Source: Candidatus Nezhaarchaeota archaeon (GTDB taxonomy: Archaea; Thermoproteota; Methanomethylicia; Nezhaarchaeales; B40-G2). From it: a DNA stretch of 48,830 bases. The translations under genes and the position numbers were made by a program. Positions within the stretch are counted from its first letter, which is position 1; the number at the start of each line of letters is the position of its first letter. Location: the NCBI GenBank assembly GCA_026413605.1, contig JAOAKM010000005.1:1-48830 (forward strand), in the 5' to 3' direction. Shown here in pieces: positions 16,051-23,152 of this stretch. The notes below the pieces were generated by a model. The model had not been told where the DNA came from. It saw nothing but the letters and a program-made list of their open reading frames with translations, and made no database searches.

Positions 16051-16950
16051 TTGAAGAGGCCGGTCTTAGTAGAGGACCTAGACCTGCCGGCTCCGTGGAT
16101 CGAGGCGTTAAAGGACAATGGAATAAGGCTAGCCCCTCAACTCGCCCTCGCCCAGCCTAGCTCAATAGCTAGGATACTGGGAGCGAGCTTAGCTAGTGCT
16201 AGGGAGGTGGTTCGAGAAGCTGCTAGACGGCTCGGCCTTGAGAGGCAGTGGGTAGAAGAGGTCGAGGCCCACGGAGAGAAGGTAACTACCTGTAGCCTTA
16301 ACCTAGATAGGCTCCTCAACGGGGGGATCGAGGTGGGCTGGGTGACTGAGCTCTACGGCCCCTTCGCCTCAGGTAAGACGCAGCTATGCCACCAGCTCTG
16401 CGTTAATGCTCAGCTAGGCAAGAAGCAGGGAGGGCTTGGGTCTAAGGCGGCCTACATAGACACCGAGGGGTCCTTTAGGCCTGAGAGGGCTAGGGAGATG
16501 GCTGAGGCCCTAGGCCTAGATTTAGCAGAGGCCCTTCGAAACATAGTGGTCTTCAGGCCTAGCAGCGTTAAAGAACAGATGGCGGCGGTAAGCGAGCTTA
16601 AGCAAATGGCTAAGAAGGTGAGGCTAGTGGCCGTAGATACGGTGATAAACTTGTTTAGGGCCGAGTACAGCGAAGAAGTGATTGAGAGGCAGTGGAGGTT
16701 ACTGCTACACTTAAGACAGCTCCAGGAGCTAGCTGAGCTAGGGGTGGCCGTCGTAGTGGCTAACCACGTAGTGACTGAGCCGAGCGGAGTAGAGGTGCCG
16801 GCTGGAGGAGTAGTGTTAGACGCCGGTATAGTTAAGATTAAGCTTAGCAGGCACCGAGGGCTATGGAGGGCTGAGCTCGAAGCTAGCCCCTACCTACCTG
16901 AGGGGGAGGCGCTATTTAGGATAAGTAGGGAGGGAGTGAGAGATCCGTAG
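16051..16950 (+). CDS. radA: RadA/Rad51-family recombinase
   Basis: Strand-exchange ATPase of homologous recombination. The 299-aa protein has a short N-terminal helix-hairpin-helix-like domain (1-60), the linker, then the RecA core: Walker A GPFASGKT (103-110), catalytic glutamate in DTEG (139), Walker B LVAVD (192-196), the RadA-typical LFRAEYSEE...ERQ block and the C-terminal SPYLPEGEALFRIS. Two oddities: the L2 region reads ANHVVTEPSGVEVPAGG rather than the usual TNQV...GGH form and is several residues short, and the whole protein is 20-50 aa shorter than normal RadA. It may be this organism's RadA or a diverged paralogue; the rest of the genome would decide. Confidence 0.82.
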   Translation: MKRPVLVEDLDLPAPWIEALKDNGIRLAPQLALAQPSSIARILGASLASAREVVREAARRLGLERQWVEEVEAHGEKVTTCSLNLDRLLNGGIEVGWVTELYGPFASGKTQLCHQLCVNAQLGKKQGGLGSKAAYIDTEGSFRPERAREMAEALGLDLAEALRNIVVFRPSSVKEQMAAVSELKQMAKKVRLVAVDTVINLFRAEYSEEVIERQWRLLLHLRQLQELAELGVAVVVANHVVTEPSGVEVPAGGVVLDAGIVKIKLSRHRGLWRAELEASPYLPEGEALFRISREGVRDP

Positions 16951-16958
16951 GGGGGAGG

Positions 16959-17369
16959 TTGGCTTCTAAGATGATGGAGGAGAAAATTGAGCAGTACGTT
17001 AAGAGCCTATTTTTTGAGGCCTATGCTGAGGCAGCTAGGATCTTGGAGAGCCTCAGGCCTCTTAGAGAGAAAGGTGAGTACTCCGAGGGTAGGTACATGG
17101 CCCTCCACGGGCTACTCGCAGCAGCTCAGCGAGAAGATAGAGATGCATTATTCCTCAAGGTAAAGGCTGAGATGAAGCCTCAAGAAATAGAGGAGGTAAA
17201 GAGGCTACTGAAGGCTAGACTCTCCAGCCCAGTGATAGACGAGTTCGATAAGGGTTTCTTGGAGCAGTGGATTTACGTAATCGAGTTAGTAGCTAGCCTT
17301 AAGCAGGCACGCGGTGAGGAGGGAATTGATAAAGATAGCAATAGAGCACCTAGAGCCTCACCTAAGTAG
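16959..17369 (+). CDS. Hypothetical all-helical protein in the RadA operon
   Basis: A 136-aa protein I cannot name. It is predicted to be nearly all alpha-helical and charged, with helices around 5-30, 40-58, 60-72, 73-88 and 95-118 and a disordered basic tail. The TTG start at 16959 follows a GGGGGGAGG ribosome-binding sequence 8 nt after radA, and its end overlaps the next gene. ATG codons at residues 5 and 6 are alternative starts. The position suggests a function with RadA or with the downstream methyltransferase; nothing in the sequence shows which. Confidence 0.6.
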   Translation: MASKMMEEKIEQYVKSLFFEAYAEAARILESLRPLREKGEYSEGRYMALHGLLAAAQREDRDALFLKVKAEMKPQEIEEVKRLLKARLSSPVIDEFDKGFLEQWIYVIELVASLKQARGEEGIDKDSNRAPRASPK

Positions 17370-17952
17370 GTGGCTTTGGCTCGAGTACCGACACGCCGTA
17401 AAGCTGGCCGCGGGGAAGATCGAGTTTACTAACGTAAAGCGCGAAGACCACCTCCAAGCCCTCTCTAAGCTAGCTCCATCTCATCGCGAGGGGGTGCTGG
17501 AGCTCTACTCGCCAGACGCCCTCATAATACTAGACCCGCAGGCCCCCGTTAAGCTAAGCCCAGGGGACTTGGAGGGCGACGTAGTCGTAGTAGTAGGAGG
17601 CATACTTGGAGACCATCCGCCTAGGGGGAGGACGTACAAGCTACTAACGAGCAAGGCGAAGGGGGCTAGGGCTAGGAACATAGGGGCCCACCAGTTCTCA
17701 ATAGATGGAGCAGTCTACGTAGCGCTGAGGGTAGCTGAGGGGGTAAGGGTGGAAGAAGTGCCAGTTAAGGTGGGGATCACCGTAAAGGCCCCTCCGTTCA
17801 CCGTACACCTACCCTACGCCTACCCACTAAGAAGAGGCAGGCCGGTCGTATCGAGGGAGCTCATCGAGTACCTTAAGTCGGGCATAGTAGAGGATGAAGA
17901 GAGGTTGATTAGAGGGGACGTAGTAGAGGTCACCACGACGAGGGATGGATGA
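17326..17952 (+). CDS. SPOUT-fold SAM methyltransferase, Sfm1/PF04252 (DUF431) family
   Basis: The protein starts MIKIAIEHLEPHLSRWLWLE, matching the IEHMEE-FSEW-ILEY start of yeast Sfm1, and contains VVVGGILGDHPPRGRT and AHQFSIDGAVYVAL, which align with the Sfm1 GGILGDHPPRDRT and QMTTDTAI blocks forming the SPOUT trefoil-knot SAM site. Yeast Sfm1 methylates an arginine of ribosomal protein uS3; the archaeal substrate is not established. I chose TTG 17326 because GAGGAGGG lies just upstream; an upstream in-frame GTG at 17314 would add four residues. It overlaps the preceding gene by 44 nt and the convergent membrane protein gene by 23 nt. Confidence 0.82.
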   Translation: MIKIAIEHLEPHLSRWLWLEYRHAVKLAAGKIEFTNVKREDHLQALSKLAPSHREGVLELYSPDALIILDPQAPVKLSPGDLEGDVVVVVGGILGDHPPRGRTYKLLTSKAKGARARNIGAHQFSIDGAVYVALRVAEGVRVEEVPVKVGITVKAPPFTVHLPYAYPLRRGRPVVSRELIEYLKSGIVEDEERLIRGDVVEVTTTRDG

Positions 17953-18238
17953 GGAGGGAGGCGGTGAGGGACCACGAGGTCAGCCATAGGAAGATGAACG
18001 TGAAGAGGCCGCCCCTCTTAAGATAAGAGGGATTGTTTAAGTCCTCAGCCTTAACGCCCACAGCCTTAGCTAAGAATATGGAGAAGTAGTAGGCTGCGAA
18101 GGCTAAGGCTACGGAGGCTAGGCTAATTAGTTGGGAAGGAGCGAGTCCACGCAGACTAAAGGAGAGAAGGCCAGATAAGGCTCCAGCTAAGCAGCCTAAG
18201 AGGGCCCTCAAGTAGTAGACCTTCGACCCAGGCCTCAT
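17930..18238 (-). CDS. Small membrane protein, possibly EMC6-like
   Basis: A 102-aa protein with three hydrophobic segments (about 10-30, 35-57 and 75-97) and a conserved-looking loop DLNNPSYLKRGGLFTFIFLWLT. Three helices, the size and the 'YLKxGxFTFxxLWxxxW' end resemble archaeal homologues of the eukaryotic EMC6 membrane-insertase subunit, but I hold that assignment loosely. GGGGTAGG precedes the ATG as a ribosome-binding site. It is convergent with the SPOUT methyltransferase gene and divergent from rqcH. Confidence 0.62.
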   Translation of the reverse strand: MRPGSKVYYLRALLGCLAGALSGLLSFSLRGLAPSQLISLASVALAFAAYYFSIFLAKAVGVKAEDLNNPSYLKRGGLFTFIFLWLTSWSLTASLLIHPSSW

Positions 18239-18329
18239 TACCTACCCCGTTACTCATAATTATGGAGGTTTCTTAAATAGCCTGCCGAGCTCTACGTAGT
18301 GCTGAGGCTGAGGGCCCCTGAAGAGGCAG

Positions 18330-20261
18330 ATGACGGCGTTAGACGTAGCAGCCGCCGTAAGGGAGCTGAGGCAGTTAGTAGTAGGCGCCCTAGTAAGCAA
18401 CGTATACCAGGCGCTAGATGGATCTATAGTCTTAAAGCTAAGGAGGCGCGGAGAAAGCTTTACGCTCATAGGCGATGCGCTAGGTAGAATCGGGCTAACT
18501 TGGGTGGAGTACGCTAAGCCAAGCAGGCCTCCATCCTTCTGCGCCCTCCTGAGGAAGCATATTAGGGGGGGTAGGGTTGTCGAAGTAAAGCAGTTAGGCA
18601 TGGACAGGGTGGTCGCTATAGACATAGTTAAGGAGGGCTCGTCGCGCAGCCTAATTTTCGAGCTAGTTAGGGGCTTCAACGCCCTGCTCGTTGAAGACGG
18701 CGTAATAGTAGGGTGCCTACGCCCAAGAAGGATGAAGGATAGAGCCCTACTACCAAGGGAGAGCTACCGCCCTCCTCCTTGGAGGGGGCTAAACCCACTT
18801 CTCTGCAGCCCAGAGGAGTTCTTCAACGAGCTGAGGAAGCATAGAGGTAAGCTCGTGCCAGCCTTAGTTAAGGCGTTTAACGTATCTAGCGAGGAAGCCG
18901 AGGAGGCGTGTCTTAGAGCTAAGGTAGATAGGGAGGTTGAGGCTAGCGGCGTGAGCGTGGAGGTGGCTAGGGAGATACATAGGAGCCTAGTAGAGCTGTG
19001 GAGGAGGGTTACTGAAGGCGAGCTAAACCCTCACGTAGTACTTTTAAAGGGGGAGCCCGCCACCGTCCTCCCGATTAAGCTAGCCTCTATAGAGGGTGAA
19101 GAGGAGGGCTTCCCATTATTCAACGAGGCTTTAGATCGCTACTTCACCTGGCTAAGGGGGAGGCTGGAGGAGGAAGAGAGGTCAGCTAGGCTTAGGGAAG
19201 TAGAGGAGAGGCTTAAGGACACCTTAGAGCTGCAGAAGGCAAAGCTCGAGGAGCTGAAGAGAAGAGAGGCCCAGCTGAGAGCTGAAGCTGAGCTGATTAT
19301 GAGCCAGCTGCCTACTGCTCAGCGAGCCATAGAGGCCGCGGTCAAGGCCGTCGAAAGCGGGCTGAGAGGTAGAGAGGTGCTAGAGGCTGTGAGGAGGGAG
19401 GCCCCTGAAGTAGAGGAGGTGGACTTAGCGGCTAAGACGGTACGCGTTAAGCTCGACGGGCGAGAGGTAGTCCTTAGCTACTTGAGCACAGCGGCTCAAA
19501 ATGCCTCGAGGGTCTACGAGGAGGCAAAGGAGGCCGAGCGTAAGGCTAGGAGGGTCGAGGAGGCCATGAAGTCAACCCTAGAGCAGGCTTTAAAGGCTGA
19601 GCGTAAGGTCAAGGAGGAGGCCCCTAGCTTTAAGCGTAGGGCGTGGTATGAAGAATTTAGGTGGTTCTACACTTCAAACAGCCTCCTAGTCGTAGGTGGA
19701 AGGGACTCTTCGCAAAACGAGAAGCTAGTTAGGAAGTATTTGAGCGAGGGCGATGTCTTCCTCCACGCAGACATATACGGAGCGCCCGTGGTCGTAGTGA
19801 AGCAAGGGGTAAAGGCAGCCGAGGAAGATCTAAGGGAGGCAGCTCAATTCGCTGTAGCGTACTCAAGGGCGTGGAGGGAGGGGAGGCTTCAAGGAGACGC
19901 TTACTGGGTCTGGCCGAGCCAAGTATCTAAGACGCCTCCTTCGGGCGAGTACCTTCCAAGGGGAGCGTTCATGGTGAGGGGGGAGCGTAACTATTTGAGG
20001 GGAGTGCCCTTAGAGCTAGCCGTAGGCATAGATGGCGAAGGAAGGGTGATCGGGGGGCCCGCGGTCCCGGTGGCAAAGAGAGCTAAGAGGTACGTTGTGC
20101 TAGCCCCTGGCCACACCTCACCTTCAAGCTTAGCTAAGGAGGTAGCGGCTAAGCTAGAGCTACCTCAGAGCAGGGTTGAGGAGGTAAGTAGGTTTATGCC
20201 ACCGGGCCCTAGTAGGATTATTAAGGTAGTCAAGGAGGATACCAGTGAGGGAGCTAAATGA
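18330..20261 (+). CDS. rqcH: RqcH/Rqc2 (NFACT family) ribosome quality-control protein
   Basis: Binds split large ribosomal subunits carrying stalled peptidyl-tRNA and, in bacteria, drives alanine tailing. The 643-aa protein has the NFACT-N domain (1-180), a helix-hairpin-helix middle part (180-260), long coiled coils rich in Glu/Arg/Lys (about 270-340 and 390-430) and NFACT-R (about 440-560, WFYTSNSLLVVGGRDSSQNE and FLHADIYGAPVVVVK). The Asp-Arg pair needed for tailing in bacterial RqcH is present as D92-R93 (GMDRVV). ATG is preceded by GAAGAGGCAG. First gene of a five-gene operon; it overlaps the next gene by ATGA. Confidence 0.92.
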   Translation: MTALDVAAAVRELRQLVVGALVSNVYQALDGSIVLKLRRRGESFTLIGDALGRIGLTWVEYAKPSRPPSFCALLRKHIRGGRVVEVKQLGMDRVVAIDIVKEGSSRSLIFELVRGFNALLVEDGVIVGCLRPRRMKDRALLPRESYRPPPWRGLNPLLCSPEEFFNELRKHRGKLVPALVKAFNVSSEEAEEACLRAKVDREVEASGVSVEVAREIHRSLVELWRRVTEGELNPHVVLLKGEPATVLPIKLASIEGEEEGFPLFNEALDRYFTWLRGRLEEEERSARLREVEERLKDTLELQKAKLEELKRREAQLRAEAELIMSQLPTAQRAIEAAVKAVESGLRGREVLEAVRREAPEVEEVDLAAKTVRVKLDGREVVLSYLSTAAQNASRVYEEAKEAERKARRVEEAMKSTLEQALKAERKVKEEAPSFKRRAWYEEFRWFYTSNSLLVVGGRDSSQNEKLVRKYLSEGDVFLHADIYGAPVVVVKQGVKAAEEDLREAAQFAVAYSRAWREGRLQGDAYWVWPSQVSKTPPSGEYLPRGAFMVRGERNYLRGVPLELAVGIDGEGRVIGGPAVPVAKRAKRYVVLAPGHTSPSSLAKEVAAKLELPQSRVEEVSRFMPPGPSRIIKVVKEDTSEGAK

Positions 20262-20818
20262 GGGGGCTTAGGCTTAGCGTAGCAGACGTAGCCCACCCAA
20301 ACCCCCTCGTGGCGCCTTCGTCGATGACGGTTAAAGAAGGCGCCGCGCTCATGGCCTCCGAGGACGCCGGCTGCGTAGTAGTTACTGACGCCGAGGGAAG
20401 GCCCATTGGTATAGTTACGGAGGGGGATCTAGTATCTAGGGTACTCGCTAAGGGCCTAGATCCGTCAACAACAACCCTAGGGCAGGTAATGTCCAGCCCA
20501 CTAATAACGGTTAGGCCTAGCGATAGCATCATCGATGCCCTCAGGCTAATGTCTAAGATGAGGGTGCGCCACCTAGTCGTTATGGAGAGGGGGAAGGTGA
20601 GGGGGCTCGTAGTAGACAGGGACATAGTGAGGGTGGCCCCTATGCTCGTTGAGATCTTAGCTGAGAAGGCGTCGATAATCGTCGAGGAGCCCTTAGTTAA
20701 AGAGGGGCTGGCGGGGCATTGCGATAGCTGTGGCGAGTGGTCAGACAACTTAATGCAAGTGGACGGCCAGATGCTATGCGAAGAGTGTAGGCTTGAGTAC
20801 GGGATTGAGAGGGCATAA
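20258..20818 (+). CDS. Tandem CBS-domain protein with C-terminal zinc ribbon
   Basis: Two CBS domains (about 8-62 and 72-125) form a Bateman module that typically senses adenine nucleotides or SAM; typical pieces are VVVTDAEGRPIGIVTEGDLV and HLVVMERGKVRGLVVDRDIV. A four-cysteine zinc ribbon follows at about 153-178 (HCDSCGEW...MLCEEC). The 186-aa architecture occurs in archaea without a known specific job. It overlaps rqcH by 4 nt (ATGA), so it is translationally coupled to it and may report cell energy state to ribosome quality control; that link is inference. Confidence 0.88.
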   Translation: MRGLRLSVADVAHPNPLVAPSSMTVKEGAALMASEDAGCVVVTDAEGRPIGIVTEGDLVSRVLAKGLDPSTTTLGQVMSSPLITVRPSDSIIDALRLMSKMRVRHLVVMERGKVRGLVVDRDIVRVAPMLVEILAEKASIIVEEPLVKEGLAGHCDSCGEWSDNLMQVDGQMLCEECRLEYGIERA

Positions 20819-20824
20819 GTAGAG

Positions 20825-21346
20825 TTGAGAGGGGCGAGGCTGCTCGTAGACTCTATGTGTGGAAGGCTAACGAGGTGGCTTAGGATGCTAGGTATTGACA
20901 CAGCCTACTTAAGGGAGGGGGGAGACGAAGAGCTCTTGAGTAGAGCGAAGGACGAAGGGAGGGTGCTAGTGACTAGGGACGAGGAGCTGTACGAGAGGGC
21001 CGTTAGGGAGGGGGTCTCCACGATCCTAATTAAAAGCCACTACTTAGTAGAGCAGCTAGCCTACGTAGTAAGTAGGCTTGGGTATGAGCCTAGAGTAGTA
21101 CCTGACTATTCTAGATGCCCCAGCTGTAACTCACCGCTAAGGAGGGCCTTAGGAGAGGAAGTGAGCGGCCTAGTTCCTGAGGGATCCCTTAAGGCGCATA
21201 GAGAGTTTTGGAGGTGCACTGGGTGCGCAAAAGTATACTGGAAGGGGAGGCACTTTACGAACATAGAGAAGGTGCTGAGCCAAGTGAAGGAGGCCATGCC
21301 TAAGCTTAAGAGGCTAAGCATAAGGGGGAAAGGGATTGAAGCTTAG
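20825..21346 (+). CDS. Mut7-C family PIN-like ribonuclease with zinc ribbon
   Basis: Predicted endoribonuclease of the Mut7-C/DUF82 family, a branch of the PIN-like nuclease superfamily. Acidic active-site candidates are D9 (LLVDSMCGRLTRWLRMLG), D34/E35 and D52 (VTRDEELYERA). A zinc ribbon follows with C98, C101, C131 and C134. The 173-aa TTG-start protein matches the family's usual size. It lies 6 nt after the CBS gene and overlaps the AMMECR1 gene by 11 nt. Next to RqcH it could cleave mRNA or tRNA on stalled ribosomes; I infer this from position only. Confidence 0.88.
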   Translation: MRGARLLVDSMCGRLTRWLRMLGIDTAYLREGGDEELLSRAKDEGRVLVTRDEELYERAVREGVSTILIKSHYLVEQLAYVVSRLGYEPRVVPDYSRCPSCNSPLRRALGEEVSGLVPEGSLKAHREFWRCTGCAKVYWKGRHFTNIEKVLSQVKEAMPKLKRLSIRGKGIEA

Positions 21347-21965
21347 TGAAGGAGAGTTTCTTGTAAGGCTTGCTAGAAGAGCGGTGGAGGTCTACTTGGC
21401 TGAAGGTAAGCAGATAAGCCCCCCTGAAAATACCCCGGAGAGGCTTAAGGAGAGGCAGGGGGTGTTCGTAACCATTAATAGCTTCGAGCCCTTCGAGGGG
21501 AGGGTGTTTAAGAGGCTCAGGGGGTGCATAGGCTACCCGGAGCCCATACTTCCGCTCGTAGAGGCTACTATAGACGCTGCCATAAGCTCAGCCACTAGGG
21601 ATCCTAGGTTCCGCCCACTAACCCTTAAGGAACTGGGGAAAGTCGTTTTCGAGGTCAGCGTCCTATCGCCGCTAGAGCTAGTCGAGGCGCCGAGGGCCGT
21701 TGAGCTACCCAAGAGGATTAAAGTCGGGAGGGATGGGCTAGTTGTAGCGAGGGGGCCCTTTAAGGGGCTGCTCCTTCCACAAGTAGCTATAGAGTGGGGC
21801 TGGGACGAGGAAACCTTTCTCTCAGAGGCCTGTATGAAGGCAGGGCTATTCCCAGACGCGTGGCTACTAGAGGGGACGAAAGTCTATCGCTTTGAGGCAG
21901 AGGTCTTTGAGGAGCTAGAGCCAGGAGGTAAAGTAATTAAGAAGGAGCTCGCCGCCGCAAGGTAG
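21336..21965 (+). CDS. AMMECR1-domain protein
   Basis: A 209-aa member of the AMMECR1 family, conserved in archaea and eukaryotes, often near MEMO1-type proteins, with no settled biochemical role. Diagnostic are RLRGCIGYPEPILPLVEATI with the family's invariant RGCIG core, ATRDPRFRPLTLKEL and FEVSVLSPLELVE. The TTG start at 21336 lies inside the Mut7-C gene and gives MKLSEGEFLVRLARRAV, which fits the family N-terminus. Fourth gene of the rqcH run; no MEMO1 gene is visible nearby. Confidence 0.92.
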   Translation: MKLSEGEFLVRLARRAVEVYLAEGKQISPPENTPERLKERQGVFVTINSFEPFEGRVFKRLRGCIGYPEPILPLVEATIDAAISSATRDPRFRPLTLKELGKVVFEVSVLSPLELVEAPRAVELPKRIKVGRDGLVVARGPFKGLLLPQVAIEWGWDEETFLSEACMKAGLFPDAWLLEGTKVYRFEAEVFEELEPGGKVIKKELAAAR

Positions 21966-21970
21966 GCTTA

Positions 21971-23152
21971 ATGAAGCTGTATATAGCTGCGTGCGGGCTA
22001 GGGCTCGGACACGCCTCAAGGTGCCTAGCCCTAGCCGAAGAGGCCAAGCGCGAAGGACACGAAGTAGTGTTCTCGACTTATAGCGGCGAGGCCGCCCTCT
22101 TCATAAGGTCTAGGGGGTTCGAGGTCTACGAAACACCGAGCCTCTCCTATAAGCTAAGCAAGGAGGGGGACGTGGACTTTAGACTGACGCTAGCCAAAGG
22201 GCCCCTAGAAGTACGCAAGCTACCGATTCAAATAGCCCTGGAGCTTAAGTACCTAAGGCTCGCTAAGCCAGACGTAGCGCTCTCCGACTCTAGGCTCTCA
22301 ACGATAATCGCTGCCAACATCCTAGGCATACCGTCGGCCCTCCTCATAAACCAGCTCAAAGTGATAATCCCAAGGAGGAGGCCTATTAAGGGGCCGACGT
22401 TATCCCTGAAGAGCAGTATTGAGCGTCTAGGCTGCGAGCTCCTGGGGAGAGTGTGGGGATTAGCCTCAAAAATATTCATTCCGGACTTCCCCCCGCCATT
22501 AACCATATCTAGGGCAACCTTAGAGGTGCCTGAGAGGCTGAGGGGGAAAGTGAAGCTAGTAGGCCCATTACTAAGCAGAGAGCTTCTACAGCTTACCGAG
22601 GGGCTGAGCAAGAGAGATGCTAAGCTTAAGCTAGGGGCCTCCAGCCCCCTAGTGGTTGCGTCTATAGGTGGGCTTAGGGAGGAGAAAGTTAAGCTTCTCA
22701 GGGCGATGATGCGCGGCCTAGGCCACGTGGACGGCTTGAGGGTCATTGCCTCATTTAGCCTACCTGACCATAAGGAGCTGATCTTGAGGAGGGGGGGCCT
22801 AGAAGTACATAGCTGGCTTCCTAACTACTGGAGCCTACTAGCAGCTGCTGACGTCTGCATTAACCACGGCGGACACACCTCGATAGCGGAGGCTATCTAC
22901 GCAGCTACGCCCATGGTGCTAGCCCCTCTAAGAGGACACACTGAGCGCTACAGCAACTCAAAGTCAATGGAGCGCCTAGGGATAGCTCGCGTAGTGGATC
23001 TTGAAGATGAGGGGCCCGAGGGGCTTAGGGAGGCAGTGCTCAAGGTCCTAGAGGACCCTTCCTACGCTAAAAGAGCGGCCGCGGCCGCAAAGTTAGCCCG
23101 CCGTTTCTACACGGCTAGGGAAGTGGTAAGCGAAGTTGTCAAGCTTGCCTAG
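21971..23152 (+). CDS. GT-B fold glycosyltransferase (MurG/GT28-like)
   Basis: The 393-aa protein begins with MKLYIAACGLGLGHASRCL, the GxGHxxR donor/acceptor loop of MurG-type transferases, and in the C-terminal half has NHGGHTSIAEAIYAATPMVL followed by RGHTERYSNS, the nucleotide-sugar binding site of the GT-B fold. No membrane segments are seen. Likely transfers a sugar from UDP- or related donor to a lipid or protein acceptor; the acceptor is unknown. It is last in the rqcH operon, 5 nt after AMMECR1, and convergent with the radical SAM gene (18-nt gap). Confidence 0.85.
   Translation: MKLYIAACGLGLGHASRCLALAEEAKREGHEVVFSTYSGEAALFIRSRGFEVYETPSLSYKLSKEGDVDFRLTLAKGPLEVRKLPIQIALELKYLRLAKPDVALSDSRLSTIIAANILGIPSALLINQLKVIIPRRRPIKGPTLSLKSSIERLGCELLGRVWGLASKIFIPDFPPPLTISRATLEVPERLRGKVKLVGPLLSRELLQLTEGLSKRDAKLKLGASSPLVVASIGGLREEKVKLLRAMMRGLGHVDGLRVIASFSLPDHKELILRRGGLEVHSWLPNYWSLLAAADVCINHGGHTSIAEAIYAATPMVLAPLRGHTERYSNSKSMERLGIARVVDLEDEGPEGLREAVLKVLEDPSYAKRAAAAAKLARRFYTAREVVSEVVKLA

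Follow-up and report, generated by a model that had tools for sequence, protein, structure and literature searches.

Why does the gene for the ribosome quality control factor RqcH open a closely spaced run of genes in an archaeal genome, and what might the products of that run do together? The locus lies in a stretch of 48,830 nucleotides (nt) from a Candidatus Nezhaarchaeota archaeon (assembly GCA_026413605.1, contig JAOAKM010000005.1, positions 1 to 48,830), which is referred to here as the window. Proteins of the RqcH family are known to work at stalled large ribosomal subunits, on the nascent chain and the tRNA. Downstream of rqcH, the window encodes a CBS/zinc-ribbon protein, a Mut7-C domain protein, an AMMECR1 family protein and a glycosyltransferase, and the original prediction, made from the sequence alone, described this run as a candidate ribosome-rescue module. 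The analysis presented here favors a somewhat different answer, to which a probability of roughly 0.6 is given: the cluster would be a ribosome-fate operon that joins quality control to hibernation, with the CBS/zinc-ribbon protein as sensor and with Mut7-C and AMMECR1 as partners on the RNA side.

The gene run and its recurrence

The five genes occupy positions 18330–23152 of the plus strand and were identified as open reading frames with matches to Pfam and NCBIfam profiles, all at the positions first proposed. The product of rqcH (18330..20261), an NFACT family protein, matches the archaeal RqcH model RqcH_arch (NF041120) at 601.7 bits against a cut-off of 400 and contains the NFACT-N and NFACT-R domains (PF05833 and PF05670) above their curated cut-offs. 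The D-R motif, which matters for the NFACT-N domain, reads GMDRVV here and its arginine, R96, is invariant across 22 aligned sequences. Next comes CBS-Z (20258..20818), which has two CBS domains (PF00571, 86.9 bits) and a C-terminal CxxC...CxxC zinc ribbon. This is followed by Mut7-C (20825..21346; PF01927, 151.5 bits, cut-off 23.3), by AMMECR1 (21336..21965; PF01871, 180.8 bits, cut-off 25), whose PDB match is 1vaj (PH0010, 2.9e-72), and by the final gene of the run, a GT28/MJ1255-like glycosyltransferase (21971..23152; PF04101, with TIGR00661 under its cut-off) found at the same position in many relatives. The rqcH and CBS-Z genes overlap by 4 nt, CBS-Z and Mut7-C are separated by 6 nt and AMMECR1 and the glycosyltransferase by 5 nt, so that the spacing of 4–6 nt originally given holds for three junctions. 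The fourth, between Mut7-C and AMMECR1, is an 11-nt overlap if AMMECR1 starts at the TTG at 21336.

A survey of rqcH neighborhoods, which had been proposed together with the prediction, covered 151 genomes of the window's phylum, with an RqcH match in 150 and a Mut7-C match in 144; in Sulfolobus acidocaldarius, used as a control, both proteins were recovered. Here, Mut7-C rows below about 70 bits were left out, five genomes with only weak matches were counted as lacking Mut7-C, and genome G007, with a weak RqcH match, was counted as lacking RqcH. The two genes are at most 5 kilobases (kb) apart in 88 of the 151 genomes, and these span 22 of the 38 families and 44 of the 79 genera of the phylum; the chance expectation for two unrelated genes lying within 5 kb in a 1.6-Mb genome is, as a rough figure, about 0.8% per genome. 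Mut7-C is downstream on the same strand in 72 of the linked genomes, upstream on the other strand in 11 and downstream on the other strand in 5. The remaining 63 genomes comprise 6 with the genes 5–15 kb apart, 13 with the genes farther apart on the same contig, 30 with the genes on different contigs and 14 counted as lacking one gene.

Two further phyla were surveyed, leaving out rows below about 50–57 bits and second fragments. In the Asgard phylum, that of the Freyarchaeota genome with locus L181, linkage within 5 kb occurs in 13 of 79 genomes (42 with the genes on different contigs, 18 lacking one of them). In the phylum of the Methanophagales genome (locus L218) it occurs in none of 100 (51 and 18, respectively), and none is seen in the named loci of Thermococcus, Methanocaldococcus and Methanosphaera. 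Recurrence of the association in 22 families and in Asgard archaea rules out an artifact or a local accident. The association is old and, within the archaea, widespread in one part but missing from another, and the Mut7-C tree, which is poorly resolved, gives no indication of recent transfer between phyla.

The comparison of gene orders drew on 77 genus-level loci of rqcH, 80 named loci (L numbers) and 20 loci in which Mut7-C is away from rqcH. The orders seen include RqcH>CBS>Mut7C>AMMECR1>GT (GT, glycosyltransferase), RqcH>Mut7C>AMMECR1, the divergent AMMECR1<Mut7C<EMC6<RqcH> and RqcH>CBS>Mut7C<amidohydrolase<AMMECR1>. As the linkage has been retained through several rearrangements, this argues for selection. 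The spacing between Mut7-C and AMMECR1 has a median of -4 nt in 42 loci, and in the 11 loci where RqcH and Mut7-C are directly adjacent, the two overlap or lie at most 20 nt apart. The locus counts behind the spacings, those from named loci and those for the EMC6 neighborhood given below are slightly high, as they take L181, L208 and L193 as Mut7-C loci; the Asgard figure of 13 of 79, which comes from Pfam matches, is unaffected. One apparent order, RqcH-CBS-amidohydrolase-aIF2gamma-Mut7-C in L181 and L208, was rejected: the 143-residue "Mut7-C" reaches only 22–23 bits and is a PIN_9/Fcf1-like protein, and the 416-residue gene is aIF2-gamma.

CBS proteins in the slot of CBS-Z

The zinc-ribbon cysteines of CBS-Z (C155, C158, C174 and C177) are invariant in 18 sequences, and its AlphaFold2 model has a predicted local distance difference test (pLDDT) score of 86.5. 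Iterative hidden Markov models built for this analysis sorted the CBS proteins of the loci into one zinc-ribbon class with two CBS domains (Z) and four classes with four CBS domains (A–D), and assigned 162 of 164 proteins. Relatives carry up to four tandem four-CBS proteins in the same slot. Among the clusters that include Mut7-C, the fullest one (L223) has the order Z-C-D-A-B, followed by Mut7-C and AMMECR1, and the relatives that share the gene order with CBS modules include genomes of the window's own class (G004 among them). These slot-mates do carry four CBS domains, as seen in full-length matches to PDB entries and in the four CBS stretches of a protein from L181.

For each of the four-CBS classes, a single representative was searched against the PDB. 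Class A has its best match in 9zni chain 6 (3.9e-30) and a further match to a part of chain 3 in 9e6q; class B matches 9zng and 9zni chain 7 best (2e-18), class C 9znf chain 4 (4.5e-35) and class D 9znf chain 5 (1.4e-33). The title of 9zni is that of a cryo-electron microscopy structure of the Methanosarcina acetivorans 70S ribosome in complex with SriC and SriD. The sequence of uL2 is identical in 9znf, 9zng and 9zni, and uL2 is also present in 9e6q/9e7f. Since the classes in the slot each match a distinct chain in archaeal 70S structures, the cluster appears to join ribosome quality control to hibernation.

CBS-module clusters are already on record. The accessible text of the HibA paper (PMC13324472) distinguishes the CBS-module families CM-1 to CM-6 and reports a CM-5/4/1/2 gene cluster of likely hibernation factors, the protein Dri, in which CM-1 and CM-5 are fused, and a CBS module with bound AMP. 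The tandem four-CBS proteins of the relatives are like these archaeal hibernation systems (CM-5/4/1/2 clusters, Dri, HibA and Sri) and their order appears to fit that of the published cluster. Together, gene order and the match to Dri suggest that classes C, D, A and B correspond to CM-5, 4, 1 and 2. RqcH, Rqc2, NEMF, quality control, Mut7, AMMECR1, operon and neighborhood go unmentioned in the text of the paper that was accessible. In the window itself, CBS-Z differs from the CM system, which has four CBS domains: it combines two CBS domains with a zinc ribbon and is therefore not a CM protein.

These comparisons bear on what had been predicted. A link of the operon to the ribosome is supported, and so is the recurrence of the cluster. 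"Rescue", by comparison, is probably too narrow a term, because the evidence points to hibernation at least as strongly. The proposal that the CBS protein is a nucleotide sensor fits as well, and relatives of its slot-mates are ribosome-bound; CBS-Z may be regarded as a candidate adenylate sensor. It is also conceivable that the cluster serves nucleotide metabolism, with the CBS protein and a dihydroorotase-like amidohydrolase setting a pyrimidine or adenylate response and RqcH being incidental. Several families, and 10 of 34 Asgard Mut7-C loci, do have the amidohydrolase between the CBS gene and Mut7-C or beside Mut7-C. As it is absent from the window cluster and from most others, and as CBS modules found in the slot belong to ribosome-bound families, this explanation is highly improbable, although no systematic search for other pyrimidine genes was made.

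Mut7-C and its proposed partner AMMECR1

Mut7-C has an alpha/beta N-terminal part and a Cys4 zinc finger. The zinc cysteines C98, C101, C131 and C134 are invariant in 26 Mut7-C sequences and, together with R20, W139 and G141, are nearly fixed in 159. The model of the window protein has a pLDDT of 93.1. Its best structural match by VIA is 8q66_A, the C-terminal domain of Caenorhabditis elegans MUT-7 (Z 9.5, root-mean-square deviation 2.8, 140 residues), the next rows being at Z 5.9, and no PIN chain is among the 50 VIA matches listed. For the animal MUT-7 C-terminal domain, PMC11347159 (2024) reports, in its accessible text, a TOPRIM-like rather than PIN fold and RNA binding, and states that the function in archaea is not known. 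The domain of MUT-7/EXD3 is of the same family as the window protein and, by the match to 8q66_A, of the same fold; it is, however, fused to a 3'-5' exonuclease (PMC11347159, same text), whereas Mut7-C of the window is a standalone protein in an rqcH operon.

The original prediction saw in Mut7-C a counterpart of the endonucleases of eukaryotic no-go decay, that is, a metal-dependent enzyme that cuts mRNA on ribosomes recognized by RqcH. Its acidic residues are in keeping with this: the window protein retains D9, D34 and D52, and the trio is intact in 50 of 61 RqcH-linked, 32 of 36 AMMECR1-linked and 59 of 62 unlinked Mut7-C proteins. The PIN-like family DUF5615 (PF18480) also matches the window protein, at 26.3 bits (cut-off 23.8), and the best Foldseek match of the model is the PIN protein 1o4w, but at E 0.015, with nothing at E 0.001 or better. 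On the other side, the best match over the whole length is the MUT-7 domain, with the fold and RNA binding noted above. Further, D34 and D52 are lost in four operon-linked Asgard members, both are changed in two others, and asparagine occupies position 9 in eight members, counted across all groups together. The SMR domain of eukaryotic no-go-decay endonucleases was not found in a Pfam scan of Mut7-C, which matched only PF01927 and PF18480. Cleavage of mRNA on stalled ribosomes by Mut7-C, as a counterpart of the eukaryotic enzymes, is considered unlikely. A general role in RNA binding, with nuclease activity as an option, is favored instead, because the zinc cysteines and R20 are nearly fixed while D9, D34 and D52 are lost in some members.

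Four Asgard loci, L290, L299, L303 and L305, form a clade on a long branch that has the window-like order RqcH-CBS-Mut7C-AMMECR1 and has lost two conserved acids of Mut7-C; its Mut7-C is possibly a non-catalytic form. In the Methanophagales phylum, several Mut7-C domains lie in longer frames of roughly 280–590 codons, possibly fusions (L245, L262, L265, L266 and L267).

AMMECR1 is a human disease gene without known activity. Its company in the window was considered informative from the start and rightly so, although Table 1 of PMC6393860 (Makarova, Wolf and Koonin, 2019) already links AMMECR1 to arCOG04290, a PIN and Zn-ribbon protein that corresponds by description to Mut7-C of the window. 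That source, in the part available, gives no tie to RqcH, to CBS modules or to the ribosome. The Mut7-C/AMMECR1 pair, like the CM clusters, is therefore already published. Literature searches, in which preprints were not covered, found no report that unites either of them with RqcH, and those on COG1656 and SriC gave nothing relevant.

The neighbors of Mut7-C were counted in three phyla. Among 63 loci of the window's phylum (34 families), AMMECR1 lies within four genes of Mut7-C in 45, a CBS gene in 39 and RqcH in 35, with none of these in 5; at least one is thus present in 58 of 63, a figure that leans towards linkage as only 20 of the 34 genus-level Mut7-C loci unlinked to rqcH were included. 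Where separated from rqcH, Mut7-C, CBS and AMMECR1 remain together. The 34 Asgard loci, viewed to about 1.5 kb on each side, have AMMECR1 in 22, RqcH in 5 and, in 10 each, the ribosomal protein gene eS6 and the amidohydrolase. In 30 Mut7-C loci of the Methanophagales phylum, AMMECR1, CBS, RqcH and eS6 were all absent. The Asgard loci in which eS6 adjoins Mut7-C are L241, L242, L243, L249, L251, L295, L296, L302, L307 and L311; AMMECR1 and a glycosyltransferase often follow behind, and eS6 was confirmed by Pfam for two loci.

Ribosome fate or shared neighborhood

How could these proteins work together? We propose that the cluster is one transcription unit whose products would decide the fate of idle or stalled ribosomes. 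By analogy with its family, RqcH would handle the nascent chain and tRNA of the stalled large subunit. The CBS/zinc-ribbon protein would sense the adenylate, and hence energy, state, and in relatives the CBS modules of ribosome-bound hibernation families, taking the same slot, would plug the ribosome. Mut7-C would bind and perhaps trim RNA on, or released from, idle or stalled ribosomes and AMMECR1 would cooperate with it on the same substrate. From the company of their genes, a role in ribosome fate is probable for both Mut7-C and AMMECR1.

The main rival is a conserved housekeeping neighborhood that is kept by shared expression and has no joint function. Several observations speak for it or against the ribosome-fate operon. 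An EMC6 homolog, a RadA-like gene, the glycosyltransferase and the amidohydrolase, the last often inside the cluster, have no obvious tie and are conserved as well. EMC6 is the divergent neighbor of rqcH in 48 of 78 genus-level and 44 of 80 named loci, which means that a conserved neighbor is in itself little proof. The link is also non-obligatory, as in many genomes Mut7-C is elsewhere or absent while rqcH persists (linkage within 5 kb is lacking in 63 genomes of the window's phylum and in the 100 of the Methanophagales phylum). Finally, the window operon has the two-CBS protein and no four-CBS module, and one further four-CBS protein of this genome (G000:C3:54419-55243) scores 129.5 bits for class A and 127.7 for class D and is not assignable. 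As CBS-Z is not a CM protein either, the link to hibernation rests, for the window genome, on the gene order shared with relatives.

What sets joint function above mere neighborhood is that Mut7-C and AMMECR1 keep company with different translation genes in different lineages, eS6 in some Asgard genomes among them, and that the slot-mates are of ribosome-bound families. Moreover, the Mut7-C, CBS and AMMECR1 genes stay together apart from rqcH and join it in varied orientations. A neighborhood without joint function is accordingly rather unlikely.

The operon's first gene is homologous to bacterial and eukaryotic RqcH/Rqc2/NEMF (PDB matches 9gy4, 7aqc and 8aaf); those systems are not known to have a Mut7-C, AMMECR1 or CBS partner. 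Possible roles of archaeal Rqc2 are discussed in PMC6514570, the available text of which does so without CBS, Mut7-C or AMMECR1 partners. With the ribosome-fate operon, Mut7-C and AMMECR1, both widespread and of a function that is not known, become tied to two ribosome systems for which structures and assays exist, and their role is therefore directly testable. The findings suggest that archaea, in lineages that include relatives of eukaryotes, may control the rescue of stalled and the storage of idle ribosomes jointly, through one operon and a nucleotide sensor. A bolder version can be offered only tentatively and is doubtful as a whole: quality control and hibernation would be a single program in the archaea nearest to eukaryotes, RqcH, the CBS plugs, Mut7-C and AMMECR1 would act jointly on idle or stalled ribosomes, and the CBS sensor would choose rescue or storage by energy state. 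In that case, AMMECR1 would have an ancient role in ribosome fate, with Mut7-C as the partner that binds RNA.

The region 5' of rqcH contains a TATA-like sequence, TTCTTAAATA (18270..18279, plus strand), spotted by eye and a candidate operon promoter. Beyond it lie the divergent EMC6-like gene, an SFM1-like gene, a small gene without an assigned family and the RadA-like gene. The EMC6-arch-like membrane protein (17930..18238, minus strand) matches PF19094 at 24.4 bits, slightly below the cut-off of 26.7. Its position immediately 5' of rqcH is conserved, so that a relative of a membrane insertase and a ribosome quality control factor form a conserved gene pair. The CBS gene and Mut7-C are often separated by the dihydroorotase-like amidohydrolase (PF01979; 8461-9810 in L181, 5195-6559 in L222); in L181, the gene after the amidohydrolase is aIF2-gamma, and L206, L208 and L220 have a close look-alike at that place. 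The RadA-like recombinase gene and a 136-residue protein without a Pfam match (16051-17369 in the window) make up a further conserved pair, which lies upstream of EMC6/rqcH in many loci.

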